Assembly: GCA_028288585.1 (NCBI GenBank)
Contig: JAQBNL010000069.1
Coordinates: forward strand, 1-64,000
Reading direction: 5' to 3'
Source of the DNA: Chitinophagaceae bacterium
GTDB lineage: Bacteria; Bacteroidota; Bacteroidia; Chitinophagales; Chitinophagaceae
Length of the DNA stretch: 64,000 nucleotides
Of this stretch, positions 11,205-23,599 are shown piece by piece. The position numbers were made by a program, and so were the translations under genes. How positions within the stretch are numbered: position 1 is the first letter of the stretch; the number at the start of each line of letters is the position of its first letter. The notes beneath the pieces are model-generated. The model saw only the letters and a list, made by a program, of their open reading frames with translations, was not told the origin of the DNA and did no database searches.

Positions 11205-11239
11205 TTATTACTTATTACTTATTACTTATTACTTATTAC
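11205..11239. repeat. Heptamer tandem repeat (TTATTAC)x5
   Basis: Five perfect TTATTAC copies; the last contains the trmH stop codon (TAA on minus strand). Confidence 0.95.
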
Positions 11240-11823
11240 TCATTCTCTATCCCCCACCCCGTTTTTAATCCTGATAATTGTTCTTCTATCAATCTCGGTG
11301 CATCATAATGCCCTGCCATCTGCTTTTGCCGGAAGGCCTCATACAAAGTAACTGCACAGGCAACAGAAATATTTAGTGATTTAATAATGCCAACCTGCGG
11401 AATGATAAAAGTGCCATCAACCAGCTTTGTTATTTCTTCACTAACACCAAATGTTTCGTTGCCAAAAACCAATGCAATAGATTCAGTGAGATCTAATTGA
11501 TGAAGTGTTGTGGACTTTTCATCTAAATGGGTAGCATAAATCTTTTTGTATCGCTTTCTCAATTCAGTAAAGCACTCATCTATATTAGTGAATTGATGAA
11601 TAGTAAGCCATTCAGCCGCCGTGGAAGAACTTCTGTAACCCCATTTTTTATGTGGTGGAATCCTGTTATTTAAAATAAATACATCCTGTATGCCAACCGC
11701 ATCGCAGGTACGCATAACAGCAGAAACATTGTGCGGATCAAAAACGTTTTCCAGCACAACAGTAAGATCAGGTTGCCTTTTATTTAAAACAGAAGTTAAC
11801 CGGTGATAACGCTCAGGTGTCAT
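11236..11823 (-). CDS. trmH: tRNA (guanosine-2'-O-)-methyltransferase, SpoU/TrmH family
   Basis: MTPERYHRLTSVLNKRQPDLTVVLENVFDPHNVSAVMRTCDAVGI closely resembles TrmH; SLNISVACAV motif. Confidence 0.9.
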   Translation of the reverse strand: MTPERYHRLTSVLNKRQPDLTVVLENVFDPHNVSAVMRTCDAVGIQDVFILNNRIPPHKKWGYRSSSTAAEWLTIHQFTNIDECFTELRKRYKKIYATHLDEKSTTLHQLDLTESIALVFGNETFGVSEEITKLVDGTFIIPQVGIIKSLNISVACAVTLYEAFRQKQMAGHYDAPRLIEEQLSGLKTGWGIENE

Positions 11824-11896
11824 ATCAATTAAATAATCTTTATAAACAAAGTTTAAAAGTATTATTTAAAGATCAGCCGAATTGTTTATTACAGCA

Positions 11897-14800
11897 CTAT
11901 TTTATTTTTACAAATTTGCGAACCACTTCCTCTCCGTCTTTGGCAATGATCTTAATAAGATGAGTGCCTGCGGCAAGATTTGAAATATCAATAACTGTAT
12001 TAATTGAATTTATATCACGGCTCATCTCCATTCGCCCTGTGAGATCAATTATTCTCAAGCTGTTGTAATTACTATTTGCTGTTTGAATGGTTAGCGTATT
12101 GGTTGCGGGATTAGGGTAAATTATTACAGGCAGTAGATTAGTTTTATCAAACAACGGTACTATATTACTGTATTGATAAGTATTATCTGTCAAAGAAAAT
12201 TTAAGGCGATAATAATTTTCCCTGCCCGGATGTACGTCTGAATATGAATATTGTATGGAAGCATCATTACCTGGCAATGGAGTTACAGAACCTAAAGTTG
12301 CCCATGATAAATTATCATTACTTCGTTCTAAAGTATAATTAGTAACGGCCAATCCCGAAATATTTTTCCATTTTAAAACATTAGCGGCTGCCTGCCTGTT
12401 TCCCATTAATATATTACCAGGCGATGCAAGTATTTTCAAAAGAAGCCAATCTTCTATTTCGCCATTATTTATTGTAGTAGAATTGTACATGCTCCTTGTT
12501 ATTGGTGCATCGGAAACAATGAGCCTGAAACCTGAATTAGTTATTCCATAGGGTACATACACCGGCACATTTACATTTGTAAGTCCGGTTACAACTGCGC
12601 TGCCACTATAAAAAGAATCTATTCCACTGGTAAAATTTTGATTGCCATCCCAGTCTATCCATATCCCATAATAAACGGTTTTACTAGCCTGGTTTGCATT
12701 GAGCCTTAAAACCCAATTATAATTTGCCCCCGATGCCCCAAAAGAAATGGTTAGCCCATCTTCTTCACTACCGTCACCAGTTGCATCAGCACTATAATTT
12801 TGCGTACATTCCCTGTCAGGCCTGGTTACACCCGCCCAAACTTTTGCAGTTGCAGTATCTTCATAACAAAGTACTGTAGCCGTGGGATAAGTGTTAGGCA
12901 AATCGCCATAATCATAACCTGAAATATATAATTTATAATCTTCTATCTCACCATTGCTTGCCCTGCCATAGCATCGTTCATCAACATTGGTTGTTCCGGC
13001 AACATCAGCAAGAACATCTGTAGTTAATCTTAGGCGTAAATAAGAAACACCCGGGTTAATTGTAGTTCCACAAACGAACGATGAAAGGTTCCATGTTAAT
13101 GTAGCTGTAGTAGCCCCATTTGCTACCGTTGCAGATGCAAATTCACCAGATTCAAAAGAACCATCTACATCAAAATCTATCCATGCATATAAAGTTGCCG
13201 TGCTTCCTGTGGTATTCGTTACAGGAATATTAGATAATGTATATGAAGTAGATTTTACATTCAATGCAGGCAATGTTGAAATTCCATCTTCATCAGCTCC
13301 ATCACCATTTGCAGCTGCGGTTGGCACACCGTCGCCATCTGCGTCTATGGTAGCGCCAATTTTTAAAGTGGTGGCCACACCAAAATGTGTAGGCCCGCAA
13401 TTGGATAATAAAGTATGATAGGTATCCGGCGCATCCCCGGCATCAAAAGCAATAGGATAACATTGACTGAATTCACTGGTATTACCAATATTGGTTCCAC
13501 TTGTTTGAATAGCAACGGCTGTTATATATTTTCCTGAAACAGTTAAAGGAACGCTTGATGCCCATGTCCCGTTTCCTGCACCTCCTCCGGCTCCATTTGT
13601 TGTAAAAACTGCAGATGAACCGATATAAGTTTTTCCCTCTCCATAATTATAGGTTGAATTTGAATAATAATCTACGCCGGCAGTATCGCCATTACAAACA
13701 TCACTACTAAATAATTCAACATAATATTGAGTAGACAATAATCCATTATAGGTTCCCGATATGGTTGCACTGGTACATCCTGTACCTGTAGATGTTGTAC
13801 CGGTTATTACAGGAAAGTTTATCATTTCATTTGGCCCATTATCAACATCTTTATTATCATTACCAGTGGGGCCATCCCAATCCAGATCTATTCCTGATGA
13901 ATATTTACCAAACGCAGGTGCACTGGCAGTACTGTTACTGGCATTCCCGTTATTATAAATACTGTTTTGGCTTATTTTATTTTTCACAGATAGTGTACTG
14001 CCGGAAACATTTAAAATATCTATCCCACGTCCAATATTTTTATATATCTGGTTTTGATAAATCAGATTACCTGAAGATTCTTCTCCGGAATTAATTCCGC
14101 CTATCAACACAGCAGAATAAGTTCCATCAGGAGTAAAGGTTCCATTTTGTGTTACAATATTATTTTGAATCGTGTTCGCATTTGATCCTTTATAGATTTC
14201 AATAGCATGATATGCATTCGCAGCGGCAACCCCATCAGGACGCATACCAAACGTATTATATTGAATGGTATTAAGATCGTTATTTGCGGTAGCATTTCCA
14301 TCAATCCAAACTCCATCATAAGCACTGTTACAATAATAATTTCTTTCAAGAGAATTGGACGCAGATGAACCAATACGGCAGGAAGTTGAATTTAAAATAT
14401 ATGTACCTGAAGAACTTAGTGCTTCCGCAGTAGTTAAGTTAGTACCAAGCCCAAAATAATTACCGGCAACTATACAACTGTTACTATTATCAATGGTTAC
14501 AGCCGAGCCTGAATTGCCAAAATAATTTGATTCATAAGCATCTGATACCCCATCGCCGTTAGTTCCTACTACGGTGCTCGTGCTGGATGAACTGATGTAA
14601 ATACATTTATCAATATAGGTTGCACCCGTACATACAATATTTAATGCAGTAACACCATCCGAGCCTATACCTATTTTATTTCCTGCAACGCGGTTACCTG
14701 TAGATGCCTGTATAACCATTCCATAATTATAACTATTAGCAGAACCAGAAGCAAATGTTACTGAACCGATAACATTTCCTTCTATATTATCTGCCGTGCC

Positions 14801-15847
14801 ATCCCCGTCTGTTCCTACAATATTATTATTACTTGACGTTTTAATTGATATTTGTACGGCTATTATGCTAGTACCGCCATTAGCGTAATTTGGTAAACCC
14901 ACCAGGCCGGTTTTAGTGGTACCAATATAATTACCCTTAATTTTATTGCTGCTACCGCCGATAAATACAATGCCGCAATCAGAATTACCACTGATTACAT
15001 TTCTTTCCAAAGCATCTGATACACCATCACCATTAGTACCAATAATATTTGCAGTACTATAATTTATCTGGATACCTGAACCTCTTTGTGTATTTAATGC
15101 TGTTGTATATAAGGCGGCTGTACCGGTTTCATTAGTTCCCAAATAATTTCCTGCTATTCTGTTTCCTGTACAGTCATTAGCAATAGTTCCGCCTTCATTA
15201 ATTGCAATCCCTTCTCCATAAAATTGGGCTCCATCACCATTACCCGATATAAGGTTGCCCTCATTAGCATCATTACTACCGTCACCATTAGTGCCTATCA
15301 AATTGCTGCTTGCGTTGTTGTTTAGTGCTATTGCATCATCCCAACAGGTCGTAGCTGCTGATATAGATAATCCGTCTGCAGCGGTACCAATATAACAACC
15401 CCATATCCAGTTTGCAGTGGCAGAGGCGCCACTTATATATATTCCTTTAAAAAAATCCTGGATTACTAATCCTTTTATTTCGCAATTTGCAGCGGTAATT
15501 TGAAAACCGTAAATACTGGAAGACCCTGCTCCATTTAAAATAATTTTTAACTGCCGAGCACCTGTACCAAGTTGCCCCTGTACAGCACCGGGTGCAGAAA
15601 AACCATTTATACAAAGAGGATAAGTTATTACCGGGTAATTACTGCCTACAGTCCAGGTAGATGCAATACTAAAATTGATGGTATCTTTTGCTGCGGTAAG
15701 ATTTGCCTGGGTAATACACCAGCGCAAAGAACCTGTTGTTCCGGTTCCCGAGCTTACATCACTATTAGTGTCTACAGTAAAAATAGTAGCATTAACTGTT
15801 TGATAAAAGAAAAGTATAATTAAAGAAGAGAGTATAGTTTTCTTCAT
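11897..15847 (-). CDS. Large secreted right-handed beta-helix protein with two GEVED-type domains and a T9SS C-terminal sorting domain
   Basis: Repeated GTNGDGxxDxxExNxISGN segments, NGEIEDYKLYI and NGEIEDWLLL, C-terminal YPNPATNTLTIQ...GTHLIKIIAKDGEEVVRKFVKIK. Confidence 0.9.
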   Translation of the reverse strand: MKKTILSSLIILFFYQTVNATIFTVDTNSDVSSGTGTTGSLRWCITQANLTAAKDTINFSIASTWTVGSNYPVITYPLCINGFSAPGAVQGQLGTGARQLKIILNGAGSSSIYGFQITAANCEIKGLVIQDFFKGIYISGASATANWIWGCYIGTAADGLSISAATTCWDDAIALNNNASSNLIGTNGDGSNDANEGNLISGNGDGAQFYGEGIAINEGGTIANDCTGNRIAGNYLGTNETGTAALYTTALNTQRGSGIQINYSTANIIGTNGDGVSDALERNVISGNSDCGIVFIGGSSNKIKGNYIGTTKTGLVGLPNYANGGTSIIAVQISIKTSSNNNIVGTDGDGTADNIEGNVIGSVTFASGSANSYNYGMVIQASTGNRVAGNKIGIGSDGVTALNIVCTGATYIDKCIYISSSSTSTVVGTNGDGVSDAYESNYFGNSGSAVTIDNSNSCIVAGNYFGLGTNLTTAEALSSSGTYILNSTSCRIGSSASNSLERNYYCNSAYDGVWIDGNATANNDLNTIQYNTFGMRPDGVAAANAYHAIEIYKGSNANTIQNNIVTQNGTFTPDGTYSAVLIGGINSGEESSGNLIYQNQIYKNIGRGIDILNVSGSTLSVKNKISQNSIYNNGNASNSTASAPAFGKYSSGIDLDWDGPTGNDNKDVDNGPNEMINFPVITGTTSTGTGCTSATISGTYNGLLSTQYYVELFSSDVCNGDTAGVDYYSNSTYNYGEGKTYIGSSAVFTTNGAGGGAGNGTWASSVPLTVSGKYITAVAIQTSGTNIGNTSEFSQCYPIAFDAGDAPDTYHTLLSNCGPTHFGVATTLKIGATIDADGDGVPTAAANGDGADEDGISTLPALNVKSTSYTLSNIPVTNTTGSTATLYAWIDFDVDGSFESGEFASATVANGATTATLTWNLSSFVCGTTINPGVSYLRLRLTTDVLADVAGTTNVDERCYGRASNGEIEDYKLYISGYDYGDLPNTYPTATVLCYEDTATAKVWAGVTRPDRECTQNYSADATGDGSEEDGLTISFGASGANYNWVLRLNANQASKTVYYGIWIDWDGNQNFTSGIDSFYSGSAVVTGLTNVNVPVYVPYGITNSGFRLIVSDAPITRSMYNSTTINNGEIEDWLLLKILASPGNILMGNRQAAANVLKWKNISGLAVTNYTLERSNDNLSWATLGSVTPLPGNDASIQYSYSDVHPGRENYYRLKFSLTDNTYQYSNIVPLFDKTNLLPVIIYPNPATNTLTIQTANSNYNSLRIIDLTGRMEMSRDINSINTVIDISNLAAGTHLIKIIAKDGEEVVRKFVKIK

Positions 15848-16000
15848 AAGAACGGATTCAGAGTTAACAAGAAAACGAAATACAGTAGATAATATTATAT
15901 ACTATACAAGAAATATGACTGAACCATTAAAAAAGACTATTGAAGGGGAGTTTGAATTATTGTGTAGGTAAATTTACGGTCCAAAAAAAATGTAAAAATA

Positions 16001-16032
16001 CTTGCATTTGTCAAAAACGGAATTTACTTTTA
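16001..16032 (+). promoter_or_regulatory. Predicted Bacteroidetes-type promoter of 16200 gene
   Basis: -33-like CTTG (16001-16004), 20-nt spacer, -7-like TACTTTTA (16025-16032). Same arrangement repeats at 16814-16845. Confidence 0.45.
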
Positions 16033-16199
16033 CAGTCCCTAACGCATAATACACAAATAACCTTTACACAGGTTTATACCTTCTCACAAATTTTTTATTG
16101 ACCTAGTATTTTTAAAAGTTGTACATAACATATGTATGCTTAACCTTTTTGAAACAATTATTATCATATAAAATCAAATTCAATTAAAAACTCAATGTT

Positions 16200-16664
16200 A
16201 TGAAAAAAAGTCTACTATGTTTTTTTATGCTGATACTGTGTATTGGCTTACTACCTGGCGGAACATTTGCACAGGATGCGCCGGGCACTTCGGGTGCCGG
16301 AAGCTTAGATGAAAGCGCCGGAAGTGTTGATGGTGCAGGGGTTAATACATTTTCTGCACCCCCACCGTATGTTACTAATCTAAAAAGAAATAATGGTAAT
16401 GGTACAACCGAGTATGGGTCAGCAGAGGCAAGGTTAAACTTTACTAAAAATGTGGGCAATATAGGAGCAATACAATTAATAGGTATTACATATATAGCTG
16501 ATGCGGGTAAATCTGTGTCCAATCTCATAATGTTTAACGGATGTCCAAGTTATGAAAACGGATATTATGGTTATAGTTTACAAAAAAATATTATCCCGGC
16601 GAAGAAACTTATGTTTCACTTTAAGAAGAGCGATGGAAGTTGTTTTTCAATTCCGGAAAATTAA
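16200..16664 (+). CDS. Small secreted protein, paralog 1 of 3
   Basis: Signal peptide ...GTFAQ, then DAPGTSGAGSLDESAGSVDGAG linker and LKRNNGNGT core shared with the next two ORFs. Confidence 0.85.
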   Translation: MKKSLLCFFMLILCIGLLPGGTFAQDAPGTSGAGSLDESAGSVDGAGVNTFSAPPPYVTNLKRNNGNGTTEYGSAEARLNFTKNVGNIGAIQLIGITYIADAGKSVSNLIMFNGCPSYENGYYGYSLQKNIIPAKKLMFHFKKSDGSCFSIPEN

Positions 16665-16693
16665 TAACAACATAGTTAACCTTAGACACTTTA

Positions 16694-16741
16694 ATTCTAA
16701 ATTAAAAAGCCGGCTGCGAAGCCGGTTTTTTAATTTAGAAT
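16694..16741 (+). terminator. Strong terminator hairpin
   Basis: ATTCTAAATTAAAAAGCCGGCT-GCGA-AGCCGGTTTTTTAATTTAGAAT, about 22-bp stem with a GNRA-type loop. Confidence 0.92.
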
Positions 16742-16813
16742 GCGGGATAATATTTTATTTAACTTTTAAAAATTCCCATTCGGCAAAATTTGTATAAATA
16801 TTTATTACAAATA

Positions 16814-16845
16814 TTTGCACTTATCATTTATGGAATATACTTTTA
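16814..16845 (+). promoter_or_regulatory. Predicted Bacteroidetes-type promoter of 16989 gene
   Basis: TTTG (16814-16817), 20-nt spacer, TACTTTTA (16838-16845), inside a leader duplicated from the upstream paralog. Confidence 0.5.
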
Positions 16846-16988
16846 CACTCCCTAACACGAAAGCTTTTACACAGCTTTTACCCTTCACATATTTTTTAAG
16901 TGCTTACGCAGTCAGTTACCTGGCATCGTATTTACTTTTTAAAGCAGTAATTATTATCTAACAATATCTTAAACTAAAACCAATTTCC

Positions 16989-17444
16989 ATGAAAAAGAAA
17001 TTACTCACATCTGGTATTTTATTTATTTCACTTTGCTTTTTTTCGCTAAACATATTTGCACAGGGAGCGCCTGGCGATTCTGGTGGTGGGGATGACCCTA
17101 CCGGAGGTAGTGATGGCGGCGGAACAATTGTAGCGGCTCAGCCATTAGGTGTACATTTTACCCGTAACAATGGAGATGGAACCTGCGGCGGACAGGCACA
17201 AATAAGATTGTATTATACCACGGCTCCTACTGTTGCCCCGGTACTAACACAAATTTATTACCAGGACCAACCTTTATACTCAAATTTGCTCCCGATTACA
17301 GGAAATATTGCAGATTTTGCATCAAAGGGATATGTAAGTTTTTGTCTTCCAACATCCAACATTCCAGCTGCAATAAAATTAACTTTAACCTATACTCCTG
17401 GTGGCACAAACCAGCCAACAGCAGAGATAAGCGGAACTGATTAG
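16989..17444 (+). CDS. Small secreted protein, paralog 2 of 3
   Basis: MKKKLLTSGILFISLCFFSLNIFAQGAPGDSGGGDDPTGGSDGGG...FTRNNGDGTCGGQAQIR. Confidence 0.85.
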   Translation: MKKKLLTSGILFISLCFFSLNIFAQGAPGDSGGGDDPTGGSDGGGTIVAAQPLGVHFTRNNGDGTCGGQAQIRLYYTTAPTVAPVLTQIYYQDQPLYSNLLPITGNIADFASKGYVSFCLPTSNIPAAIKLTLTYTPGGTNQPTAEISGTD

Positions 17445-17468
17445 TTAATAAAGATTTTATTTTTCTAT

Positions 17469-17500
17469 AAAAGCCGGCCATAAAATGCCGGCTTTTTTTT
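17469..17500 (+). terminator. Rho-independent terminator
   Basis: AAAAGCCGGC-CATAAAAT-GCCGGCTTTTTTTT. Confidence 0.92.
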
Positions 17501-17722
17501 ATCAATCGCTATTGATATTTTAAAGAATAATTTAATTTGCTATAGGACTATTACAGATCATCATAGTAATTACCGCATCCAGAAATTGCGCAAAACTCCG
17601 CTTGTATCCGCCTCCTTCTCTTTCTATCTTTGATATAGAAGTGTGGATAAATATTTAGCAATACTATTACTGATTTGCCGTTAGATATTTATTCGCTTTT
17701 TAAAATCTAAACCACCTATCCT

Positions 17723-18217
17723 ATGAAAAAGAAATTACTCACCTTTGCATTTGTTTTACTTTCAGCTTGTATTTTTTCAACAAACTCATTTTCACAGGGA
17801 GCACCTGGCGACGATGGATCCAGCGGTGAAGATGCAGGAGGAGGAAGTGTTGATGGCGGAGGCGCTGCTTTTGTATGTCCAACTGTCTCTTTTAAAAGGA
17901 ATAATGGTAACGGCACTTGTTTGGGATATGCGCAAATAAGAGTAGTATTTTCAGATCAGTTCACTGCGGGCTTTGTTATTCCAACCATAACATCTATTAC
18001 TTACCAGGGACAACCGGTACACTATTCTCTTCCACCCGATGGTATAGTTGGTATTCCAACCTACACAGGCCAGGGTTATATTAGTTATTGCCTTGGTACC
18101 ATGTCCCAATTTCCTGGTTTTAGCAAAGAATTGAATAATATACCTCCGGCGTATAAATTACAAATAACATTTAAATATGGTATAGATAAATACTGTACCG
18201 TATCTGAAAATGATTAA
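17723..18217 (+). CDS. Small secreted protein, paralog 3 of 3
   Basis: MKKKLLTFAFVLLSACIFSTNSFSQGAPGDDGSSGEDAGGGSVDGGG...FKRNNGNGTCLGYAQIR. Confidence 0.85.
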   Translation: MKKKLLTFAFVLLSACIFSTNSFSQGAPGDDGSSGEDAGGGSVDGGGAAFVCPTVSFKRNNGNGTCLGYAQIRVVFSDQFTAGFVIPTITSITYQGQPVHYSLPPDGIVGIPTYTGQGYISYCLGTMSQFPGFSKELNNIPPAYKLQITFKYGIDKYCTVSEND

Positions 18218-18240
18218 ATATCATTTTAATACTGCATATT

Positions 18241-18271
18241 AAAAAAGACCGGCTAACAAGCCGGTTTTTTT
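18241..18271 (+). terminator. Rho-independent terminator
   Basis: ACCGGCT-AACA-AGCCGGTTTTTTT. Confidence 0.88.
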
Positions 18272-18351
18272 ATTCCTTCTTGTAATTGTAGGTAAAAAAT
18301 AAATTGCCATTACCAATCCCTGTTTTATATTTAATTTCTAAAAAATATTTA

Positions 18352-20397
18352 ATGAAAACCATTCTTTTATTTATTGGCCTGAATTTGTTTTTGCAATCCT
18401 GTAAACTTAACAGCAATAATTCTTCCGAAAGCTCAAAATCTGCTGCCGATGTGCTGGCAATAAATATGGATACCGCCATAAAACCAACCGAGGATTTTTT
18501 TATGTATGCCAATGGAGGATGGATAAAAAATAATGCTATACCTGCGGAGGAAAGTGCATGGGGTATTGGCAATTTAGTAATAGAAGAAAACTATAAACGC
18601 CTGCGTGAGATAAGTGAAAAAGCAGCAAAGGAAAATGCAGCAAAAGGCTCTACCAGTCAAAAGATTGGAGACTTTTGGTCTACAGCAATGGACAGTGCAA
18701 AGATTGAACAAGCAGGATTAAAACCGCTGCAACCCTGGTTTGATAAAATCAATTCAATAACTGATGTTCCCTCTTTAATTAATGTAGCTAATCAATTAAA
18801 TTATATTGGAGTAGATGCCCTGTTCGGCGATTTCGTACAACAGGATGATAAGAACAGCGATGTAATGAGTTATAAACTATGGCAGGGCGGCATTGGCTTG
18901 CCCGACAGGGAATATTATTTTAAACCAGATTCATCCACTGTAAATATCCGTAATCAATATGTAAGACATATCACAAATATGCTTGTTCTGCAGGGGCAGG
19001 ATGCTGCTTCTGCATCCAAAGCAGCAACAGGAATATTTACCCTTGAAACAAAACTTGCCAAAGCTTCACGCAAAATTGAAGACCTGAGAGATCCATATGC
19101 CAATTATCATAAAATGGCAATAACCGATCTAAAAAAAATCTCTTCCACTATTGACTGGAAAACATCTCTTGCTAACAGGGGTATAAAGAATGTGGATTCA
19201 GTTATTGTAGGGCAACCTGAATTTTTTACAGCATTAGATGTTGTACTAAAAACAACACCTGTTGATGACTGGAAAAATTATTTACGTTTTAGAACAATAA
19301 GAAATTTTGAAGAAATGCTGCCCGAAGCTTTTGGAGCTGAAGCATTTAATTTTAATAAATTATTAAGCGGTGCAAAGCAACGAAAACCGCGATGGAAAAG
19401 AATTATACGAATGGAAGAAAACGAAATGGGTGAGCTGTTAGGGCAATTGTATGTAAAAGAATTTTTTAATGAGACAGCTAAAAAAAGGTATTCAGATCTG
19501 GTAGAATCTATCCGTGATGCATACAAAGAAAGAATAGAGAAACTTACATGGATGAGTGACAGCACAAAGCAAAAAGCGCTGATAAAACTAACGGCCATAA
19601 AAAAGAAAGTAGGTTATCCTGATAAATGGAAAGATTTTTCAGCCATGCAAATCGGAACTGAAAGCTATGTACAGAATGTTATCAACGCAAATATATGGTG
19701 GCATGATTATAACCTTAATAAATTAGGTAAACCTGTTGACAGAAACGAATGGGAAATGACTCCGCAAACGTATAACGCTTACTACAATCCAAGCAATAAT
19801 GAAATTGTTTTGCCGGCAGGCATTTTTACAGTGCCCGGTTACCGCGATGAAGATCTTGACGATGCTACTGTATATGGTTATGCAGGAGCTTCCACTATCG
19901 GGCATGAAATAACACATGGCTTTGATGACCAGGGAAGGTTGTATGATGAGAAAGGAAATTTAAAAAATTGGTGGACAAAAAATGATTCTGCAGAATTTAC
20001 TAACAGGGCGCAGTTTATAATTAATCAATTCAATTTATATGAGCCATTGCCGGGTGCAAAAATTAATGGTAAGGCAACGCAGGGAGAAAATATTGCAGAC
20101 CTCGGCGGTATACTGTTAGGTATAGATGCATTTAAAAAAACTGAACAATATAAAAAGAATGAAAAGATGGCCGGCCTCACTCCTATGCAAAGATATTTTC
20201 TTGGATATGCTTTGGGCTGGTTAGGGCAAACGAGAGATGAGAGTTTAAAGAACCGTTTAATGACCGATGTACATTCCCCCGCCAAATACAGGGTTAACGG
20301 GCCTTTTGTAGATGTTGATGAATTTTATACAACGTTTGGTATTAAACCCGGGGATAAAATGTTTGTGCCCGATAGTTTAAGAGTGAAGATTTGGTAA
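18352..20397 (+). CDS. M13 family metallopeptidase lipoprotein (neprilysin/PepO-like)
   Basis: GHEITHGFDDQGRLYD zinc motif, NAYYNPSNNEIVLPAGI, ENIADLGG. Lipobox LFLQSC supports the start at 18352. Confidence 0.93.
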   Translation: MKTILLFIGLNLFLQSCKLNSNNSSESSKSAADVLAINMDTAIKPTEDFFMYANGGWIKNNAIPAEESAWGIGNLVIEENYKRLREISEKAAKENAAKGSTSQKIGDFWSTAMDSAKIEQAGLKPLQPWFDKINSITDVPSLINVANQLNYIGVDALFGDFVQQDDKNSDVMSYKLWQGGIGLPDREYYFKPDSSTVNIRNQYVRHITNMLVLQGQDAASASKAATGIFTLETKLAKASRKIEDLRDPYANYHKMAITDLKKISSTIDWKTSLANRGIKNVDSVIVGQPEFFTALDVVLKTTPVDDWKNYLRFRTIRNFEEMLPEAFGAEAFNFNKLLSGAKQRKPRWKRIIRMEENEMGELLGQLYVKEFFNETAKKRYSDLVESIRDAYKERIEKLTWMSDSTKQKALIKLTAIKKKVGYPDKWKDFSAMQIGTESYVQNVINANIWWHDYNLNKLGKPVDRNEWEMTPQTYNAYYNPSNNEIVLPAGIFTVPGYRDEDLDDATVYGYAGASTIGHEITHGFDDQGRLYDEKGNLKNWWTKNDSAEFTNRAQFIINQFNLYEPLPGAKINGKATQGENIADLGGILLGIDAFKKTEQYKKNEKMAGLTPMQRYFLGYALGWLGQTRDESLKNRLMTDVHSPAKYRVNGPFVDVDEFYTTFGIKPGDKMFVPDSLRVKIW

Positions 20398-21061: not shown

Positions 21062-23599
21062 TTATTTTGCTATAAAAATAAATTCGCTTCCGGATTTTTC
21101 CTGGTCTTTGCCAAAGCCAGCCTGTAAAGGCACAGTATCTTCAAGATAAGATTGAATGAATTTGTACAACATTCCGGAGCTTAGATATTTTTTTTCCTTA
21201 GCAGCTCTTCTTAATCCTTCTAAAAGAAAATAAGCGAACGGAGAATGTTGCCCATTATAATCATCTCCTACCTCTTCTGTTTTACTTCCCGCAGTTATGT
21301 ATTTTCTTGTTGTCATCTGTAACTTTTTGCCAAGGGTCTTATCAGTAAGTCTGCCGGTTAAATTATAATTAATGTTCCCTCCCAGAGATTCGTCATTATC
21401 GCTAAAAGCACCGCTGAAGCAAACATCAAGCAATACAATGATTTGTTTTGCCCTGTAATTATCTGTAATATTCCTTAGTTGATTGAATGGGATATAACTC
21501 GTTAAAAAAGTATCTGCCCATAATGCTTTTGAATCTGCTGTCACAATAAATCCATCTCGGAAGATAGTGCTGTCGTAATATCCATGTCCAGCCAGGTACA
21601 ATAAAAATTGATCATTTTCCTGCAAAATATTCCGGTAAGCATACAATGAATTGTATATCTGTTTTAATGTTGGATTTTTAAGTACTGTTGTTTTAAATCC
21701 AAATAAACCTGATAAAGTATCCGCAACAGAAAATGCATCATTAACAGGATTCTGCAGCTGATTCCATGTAGAAAATTTGTCTGTGCCAATCACCAGTGCA
21801 TATTTATTACCAATAGAAGTTTTAGAATCTTTATCATCAGTTTCATTTTCCCCGGCACCTCTCGTATTTGTTTTTAACGATACATCTTTCGTAAAATAAT
21901 ATTGCAGGTCTTCTACAAATTGCTTTTCAAAAAAGAAATTAATATATTGTCTTTTAAAAGAACATTTGAATTGTTGATTTCGAAATTCATAAACTACATT
22001 CTCCCGTTTAAACGTTACATCACTGAACAGGTCAAAAATATTTGCATTATTATCTATAAGTAATGTAAAAAAATATAAGCCAGGCCCATGATCAATTTTC
22101 CCATTACAATTCACATCATCCAATCCTATACCGTCAGGTACAATTATTACCCTGTTCCGCTTTCTTATATCAGATATTACGGGATTTGATTTAATCATAG
22201 ATTTTACAAATTCTCTTTTAAAATTTTCACTTGGCCCGGCTTCTGTAAACAATAGCTGCTTATCACATTTAATATAATCAAACAATTTTTTTACATTTTG
22301 CAAAGAGAGAACATCACTTTCATTAATACCTGACCGATCAAAAGGGCTTACCATTTTTGATATTGAGGGATAAAACCATGTTTCTTCGTATTGGCCATTT
22401 TTATTCAGAGGCTGGTTAGTTAACCCCGCAAAGAAAAATGCAAAGACATCATCATCTTTTGCCTCATTAATAATTTGATTAATTGCTTTGATAATCGAAT
22501 CTTTAGTGGCCGACCTATCTAACAATAGCCATGTTTTACTTACTCCGCCACCTTGTTGAAGAAATGATTTATTCATTTTATCCGCAAACAACTCAGCGTC
22601 TTTACTGCAATTAGAAAATATTCCTGCGGCGGCAGTATAATTACTTATGCCAATTGATAAAATAAACAATCTTGAATCCCGGGAAATATTATTTGATTTT
22701 TTATCTCCCGGTATTTTAATATCTGTTGTAACAACTCCACCTAAAACATTCCTTTCAACTACACCGGCAATGGCGGGTGTTTGGCCCGGAGCAATTATTG
22801 CCATCTGTTGCTTTATTCCTGAAAATAAATTTGAATATTTTACTAATTGCTGCAATTTAAGGCTGCTGCAATATTTCTTTATTGCTAATGAAAACGAACG
22901 TTGTAAAGGCTCCTTGTCTCCAACAAAATAAGATTCTTCTTTATTAAGGCAGGACGTAATCATTATAAAGGGAGAAAGCCCGGCTTCGCTATCACTGATC
23001 TGTAAAAAACCACCACGCCCAAGTATACTTTGAGGATTAGAATTTTTTGGGCCGAAATGAGAAGCATCCATTGTAAAAAAGCACTGGCCGCTAACCCCAA
23101 TTTTTTTCCTTATTCGTTGTATGATATTTATTAGTTCATAATCAATAATTGCATATGAAAGATCAGGTGTCTTATTATTCATTACTGCATCAGTAACATC
23201 CTCAACCGAAGGAGCATCAAAAGGCATAAAGACCTGCTTTAAGGTATCGGTTTGTAATTGAAAGCCACCTCCTGAAAAATGCAGGTAAACTGCATCGCCT
23301 TCTCCAGCATTTTTTAAAATCGCATTTAATGAATTGACGATGTTTTTTTTTGTAGCCTGTTCATCTCTTAAAATATCTATGATGGGGTCGGAAGCAAATC
23401 TTTTTATAAAATACTCTATATTATCTGCGTCTTCCCTGGAATTAACTTTTGGCCATGAAGGTTGCTCAGCATATGAACCGATAGAAATAATAAGTGCATA
23501 AGTTGGATGCGCTATTCCATTGTTTTTAAATGGATGAGCAACAGAAATCAGAATAAATGAAAAAGAAAATAAGACTGCAAGAAAAAATTTATACTTCAT
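21062..23599 (-). CDS. Secreted caspase-family (C14-like) protein with three caspase-like domains
   Basis: C-terminal domain has LLYLAGHGYYD and IIVLLDVCFSGAF. Two upstream domains keep the fold motifs but have FSGGG/TMDASHFG and FFAGLTN/LLFTEAGPS. Confidence 0.85.
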   Translation of the reverse strand: MKYKFFLAVLFSFSFILISVAHPFKNNGIAHPTYALIISIGSYAEQPSWPKVNSREDADNIEYFIKRFASDPIIDILRDEQATKKNIVNSLNAILKNAGEGDAVYLHFSGGGFQLQTDTLKQVFMPFDAPSVEDVTDAVMNNKTPDLSYAIIDYELINIIQRIRKKIGVSGQCFFTMDASHFGPKNSNPQSILGRGGFLQISDSEAGLSPFIMITSCLNKEESYFVGDKEPLQRSFSLAIKKYCSSLKLQQLVKYSNLFSGIKQQMAIIAPGQTPAIAGVVERNVLGGVVTTDIKIPGDKKSNNISRDSRLFILSIGISNYTAAAGIFSNCSKDAELFADKMNKSFLQQGGGVSKTWLLLDRSATKDSIIKAINQIINEAKDDDVFAFFFAGLTNQPLNKNGQYEETWFYPSISKMVSPFDRSGINESDVLSLQNVKKLFDYIKCDKQLLFTEAGPSENFKREFVKSMIKSNPVISDIRKRNRVIIVPDGIGLDDVNCNGKIDHGPGLYFFTLLIDNNANIFDLFSDVTFKRENVVYEFRNQQFKCSFKRQYINFFFEKQFVEDLQYYFTKDVSLKTNTRGAGENETDDKDSKTSIGNKYALVIGTDKFSTWNQLQNPVNDAFSVADTLSGLFGFKTTVLKNPTLKQIYNSLYAYRNILQENDQFLLYLAGHGYYDSTIFRDGFIVTADSKALWADTFLTSYIPFNQLRNITDNYRAKQIIVLLDVCFSGAFSDNDESLGGNINYNLTGRLTDKTLGKKLQMTTRKYITAGSKTEEVGDDYNGQHSPFAYFLLEGLRRAAKEKKYLSSGMLYKFIQSYLEDTVPLQAGFGKDQEKSGSEFIFIAK

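Follow-up and report, generated by a model that had tools for sequence, protein, structure and literature searches.

Small paralogous proteins of a Chitinophagaceae bacterium as a putative tail-less form of a T9SS cargo domain

The closest relatives of the proteins described here are long-form cargo proteins of the type IX secretion system (T9SS). These proteins, of about 300-335 aa, were found by a profile search in other genomes of the family and have the same core directly after the signal peptide. The N-terminal core is followed by a second beta-sandwich and then by a T9SS type A sorting domain at the end; the C-termini of the long forms that were scanned match PF18962 (Por_Secre_tail)/TIGR04183. 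The Chitinophagaceae loci are L005, L006, L028, L007, L053 and L059-L064, and the named records belong to Chitinophagaceae and Ferruginibacter metagenome-assembled genomes. Exported proteins of this phylum are also described by the Bacteroidetes Q-rule, a glutamine after the signal-peptide cleavage site (PMC5837995).

The window, a 64,000-nucleotide stretch of a Chitinophagaceae bacterium (contig JAQBNL010000069.1), has three small genes whose products share this core. They appear to form a family in which a wider domain of T9SS cargo proteins, itself unnamed, occurs without the tail.

The array and its relation to the long forms

The three paralogous ORFs are on the + strand and encode 154, 151 and 164 aa. 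The genes and their adjoining elements are listed below.

15992-16097, + strand: upstream element of gene 1, with a similar copy upstream of gene 2
16200-16664, + strand: paralog 1 (154 aa); the signal peptide ends in TFA|Q, and a linker leads to a divergent core that keeps RNNGNGT
16696-16739, + strand: terminator-like hairpin 3' of gene 1 (-28.5 kcal/mol, z -8.8)
16805-16898, + strand: second copy of the 15992-16097 element, upstream of gene 2
16989-17444, + strand: paralog 2 (151 aa); the signal peptide ends in IFA|Q and is followed by a GAPGDSGGGDD linker and the core domain
17469-17496, + strand: terminator-like hairpin 3' of gene 2 (-15.9 kcal/mol, z -4.8)
17723-18217, + strand: paralog 3 (164 aa); the signal peptide ends in SFS|Q and is followed by a linker, GAPGDDGSSGED, and a core domain with a predicted seven-stranded beta-sandwich
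18242-18271, + strand: terminator-like hairpin 3' of gene 3 (-17.6 kcal/mol, z -5.8)

The earlier note placed three small paralogous ORFs at 16200-18217, and these coordinates match. The alignment of the array paralogs has 36 invariant columns, and their cores, without signal peptide and linker, score far above shuffled controls (Smith-Waterman z of 27.1 for paralogs 2/3, 10.4 for 1/3 and 6.5 for 1/2; background of 300 shuffles). The tandem array of three genes that it described is real but is not the whole family, since a fourth paralog of 146 aa is located on contig C5 of the window's own genome. Core identity among the short proteins is 31-43%. The Q-[GD]APG start, the Gly/Asp/Ser linker and the RNNG[ND]GT core motif, which had been assigned to each ORF, are seen in all three aligned array proteins. 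The GY[VI]S[FY]CL motif given for paralogs 2 and 3 is clear in both; GY.S[FY]C is found in paralog 4 as well, and only in these three is it clear. Paralog 1 is the divergent member, with GYYGYSL in place of GYxSYC and the aromatic-Cys replaced by YS. It has a very long branch in the tree, and a single clade of the short forms is not supported there.

A terminator had been proposed for each gene, and each of the three is indeed followed by a strong hairpin that is rich in G+C and has a T run. A stretch of about 105 bp in front of gene 1 is also repeated in front of gene 2 (local alignment score 70; the highest of 200 shuffles was 35). The region upstream of gene 3 has no similarity to this element, and a genome search with 15992-16097 gave no further strong copy beyond these two regions. 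Comparison of the array locus with Rfam found no RNA element.

All four short proteins have a Lys-rich start, a hydrophobic stretch and a -FAQ/-FSQ end, so the signal peptide noted earlier on each ORF can be read from the sequence. Since a glutamine follows the predicted cleavage site, the N-termini fit the Q-rule. The same residue occupies this site in four of four proteins and a lipobox cysteine at +1 is absent, which does not suggest a lipoprotein; the putative Sec signal peptide is of the kind expected for T9SS type A cargo. The pattern F-[AST]-Q-x-A-P-G occurs at 4 sites in the 3.3 Mb genome, which are exactly the four paralogs, and has 0 control matches. The linker at this N-terminus is common to the four short proteins and absent from the long forms. 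The common Q-x-A-P-G N-terminus argues for a single origin of the short form, a point on which the tree does not decide.

A repeat protein at locus L043 (genome G332) begins its mature part with AQQAPGD and continues with three repeats of about 90 aa that are nearly identical (RGNNGS.YTF...GTNDGSVWGGADGIYTDDS). It shares the N-terminal motif with the window family and nothing else.

The short proteins have no significant match in Pfam, NCBIfam, PHROGs or PADLOC, and no other domain was found besides the core. Partial matches that are not common to the paralogs were rejected: CFI_box_CTERM (E 0.1), FusF (E 0.12), phrog_32582 (E 0.011) and NAC (E 0.15). Sequence matches in the PDB (nanobodies and OmpA; E 0.03-0.7) all start at the first position of the profile and fall on the end where the signal peptide is. 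The T9SS C-terminal sorting domain (PF18962/TIGR04183) was not matched in any of the four short proteins. The family was therefore rightly described as having no named family and no T9SS C-terminal domain, the latter being matched in its long relatives, but the term "unrecognised" holds only for the name, as these relatives are clear. When the four short proteins were compared by hhalign with the N-terminal domains of nine long forms, stripped of their signal peptides, the probability was 99.4% and the E 8e-22 over 87 columns; BLASTP of the core reached an E as low as 3e-23. The window's genome has 27 T9SS tails above the Pfam cut-off; therefore, this genome makes use of the T9SS route.

The tail-less short form was found in the window's own genome only, among about 1,000 genomes searched (22 from the genus, about 400 from the family, 399 from the order and 392 from the class; partly overlapping sets). 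Many weak matches in these genomes have an E of 1e-4 to 0.01, and those inspected were signal-peptide matches or unrelated (L010, L014, L022, L043, L044, L048, L057, L058 and L077). Two relatives in the genus have a secreted-type protein of about 150 aa beside a long-form gene (L035 2485-2940, - strand; L054 573-1037, + strand). These look like a signal peptide plus a T9SS-like tail with little more, the converse of the tail-less window proteins.

The variable locus and the fourth paralog

The interval from the SpoU methylase to the M13 peptidase (11236-18352) contains a T9SS cargo gene and then the array.

11236-11823, - strand: SpoU-family methylase, left flank
11897-15847, - strand: gene for a 1316-aa T9SS type A cargo protein that carries GEVED and Por_Secre_tail domains
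12204-18293: stretch missing in relative G368, which keeps a scar of the T9SS cargo gene (its last ~78 codons)
From 18352, + strand: M13 peptidase, right flank
G000:C5:1427-13204 (L086): fourth paralog and a CTnDOT-like tra operon (DUF4134, DUF4133, TraG, TraJ, TraM, DUF4138)

The tail scar in G368 indicates that at least the 1316-aa cargo gene was present in the common ancestor; this does not extend to the array. In relative G389 the same interval holds two different genes. One product, of 762 aa, has a T9SS tail match below the threshold; the other, of 557 aa, resembles glucose/sorbosone dehydrogenases and has a T9SS tail. The interval is empty in relative G400, where the SpoU methylase and M13 peptidase genes are adjacent. 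The SpoU/M13 interval is a turnover site for secreted cargo among these relatives.

The window also has an 845-aa protein (21062-23599, - strand) with a caspase (Peptidase_C14) domain in two stretches, which matched the PADLOC caspase model.

A gap of 64 bp separates the fourth paralog from an ORF downstream of it, which is in line with the paralog and leads into the DUF4134, DUF4133, TraG, TraJ and TraM genes. The short family has no match among 72,556 plasmids and 50,697 phages, which rules against plasmid or phage spread.

Predicted fold and possible explanations

An AlphaFold model of paralog 3, built on a nine-sequence alignment, predicts a seven-strand beta-sandwich with a mean pLDDT of 59 (about 70-78 in the core) and a low-confidence linker. 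The long form is modeled as three successive beta-sandwiches. Confidence in the fold models is moderate, with mean pLDDT of 59 (paralog 3) and 65. The best PDB matches of the long-form model are FN3 triplets, e.g. contactin FN1-FN3 (E 4e-7). For the short-form model, the PDB matches are weak and of the Ig type; none reaches E<=0.001, and the best has an E of 0.14. The core of about 100 aa is likely an Ig/FN3-like beta-sandwich, a prediction of moderate confidence.

The short proteins are probably single-domain Sec-exported proteins, in which the N-terminal module of T9SS cargo has no tail and would have a non-catalytic binding or structural role in the periplasm or envelope. Each short protein would be exported by Sec and then cleaved by signal peptidase I before the glutamine, which would probably be cyclised to pyroglutamate once it becomes N-terminal. 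In the mature protein, one Ig/FN3-like beta-sandwich would be preceded by about 25 residues of flexible, acidic Gly/Asp/Ser spacer. The module stands alone in this lineage, both the second sandwich and the T9SS signal at the C-terminus having been lost (or never present), and this stand-alone module has been copied to four genes. Since the signal that directs the relatives to the T9SS is missing, the short proteins would presumably remain in the periplasm or envelope, or else leave via association with another protein. The wider spread of the long form, rather than a resolved tree, suggests a change from long to short by tail loss and not a tail gain. A more specific reading is that a surface-cargo module was freed from the type IX pathway, acquired a new acidic Gly-rich spacer and was multiplied into several small binding proteins, either periplasmic or released, so that tail loss switched its destination; this is a tentative suggestion that we rate below the general one.

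The array may instead consist of decaying fragments, tail-less remnants of T9SS cargo that are transient in a cargo-turnover locus and have no selected function. The turnover of the interval, including the tail scar in the close relative G368, fits such decay, as do the long branch and lost cysteines of paralog 1 and the restriction of the short form to one genome. However, all four ORFs are intact, and each has a start, a signal peptide and the common N-terminal linker that the long forms do not have. The level of core identity given above is retained at the protein level, each array gene has its own terminator, and the duplicated region upstream of genes 1 and 2 is still recognisable, so decay is an unlikely explanation.

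It is about equally unlikely that the short proteins are subunits of surface complexes, crossing the outer membrane via a tailed T9SS partner or another route. Within the variable interval the array adjoins the gene for the 1316-aa T9SS type A cargo protein, and the relatives of the array proteins are tailed T9SS proteins. However, that neighbor is on the opposite strand, the array genes are terminated separately, position is the sole link, and the fourth paralog is not beside the cargo gene. The location of paralog 4 just upstream of the tra operon may also suggest a family that conjugative elements disseminate and that acts on the element's behalf, e.g. in mating-pair contact. The lack of any plasmid or phage match and the lack of a tra gene in the array interval make this very improbable, and paralog 4 is near a contig end, which leaves its link to an element incomplete. 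The tail-less, envelope-located module remains the preferred explanation.

Comparison with known domains

The core (fold predicted) would define an unnamed extracytoplasmic beta-sandwich domain of Bacteroidota that is missing from curated libraries. What is new here, the unnamed domain family and its tail-loss variant, is modest in scope, and the practical gain is mainly in annotation.

The number of cysteines in the core differs between the two forms, with 2, 2, 4 and 2 in paralogs 1-4 and 6 in most long forms (4 in one). The short forms thus do not retain the six cysteines of the long-form domain. Since the homology itself is clear, this loss is taken as variation inside the family. By count, four of the six long-form cysteines are gone from paralogs 1, 2 and 4, which may reflect relaxed selection or lost function.

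The seven strands predicted in the short form are compatible with the Ig/FN3 beta-sandwich class, and the three-sandwich long form matches contactin FN1-FN3. The window proteins are not matched by the FN3 and Ig sequence models. Larger multidomain proteins of the order and class (L011/L042, L070, L074 and L075) have a C-P-x-x-x-x-RNNGNG start and a YCFY..N[IL]PPAG..TLEF end. Their domain is longer, with insertions, and is found in proteins of about 680 aa or more.

The long-form N-terminal domain is most like the window core and shares RNNGNGTC, [IL]R[LMV].[FY], P.I.SI, GY[IV]SYC and N[ILM]PPA with it. The window proteins differ from the long forms in having no second sandwich and in the addition of the acidic Q-x-APGD Gly/Asp/Ser linker. 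The T9SS type A sorting domain is present on the long forms and absent from four of four short proteins. The same domain with and without its tail is a natural comparison that could indicate what the T9SS tail alone decides about location.
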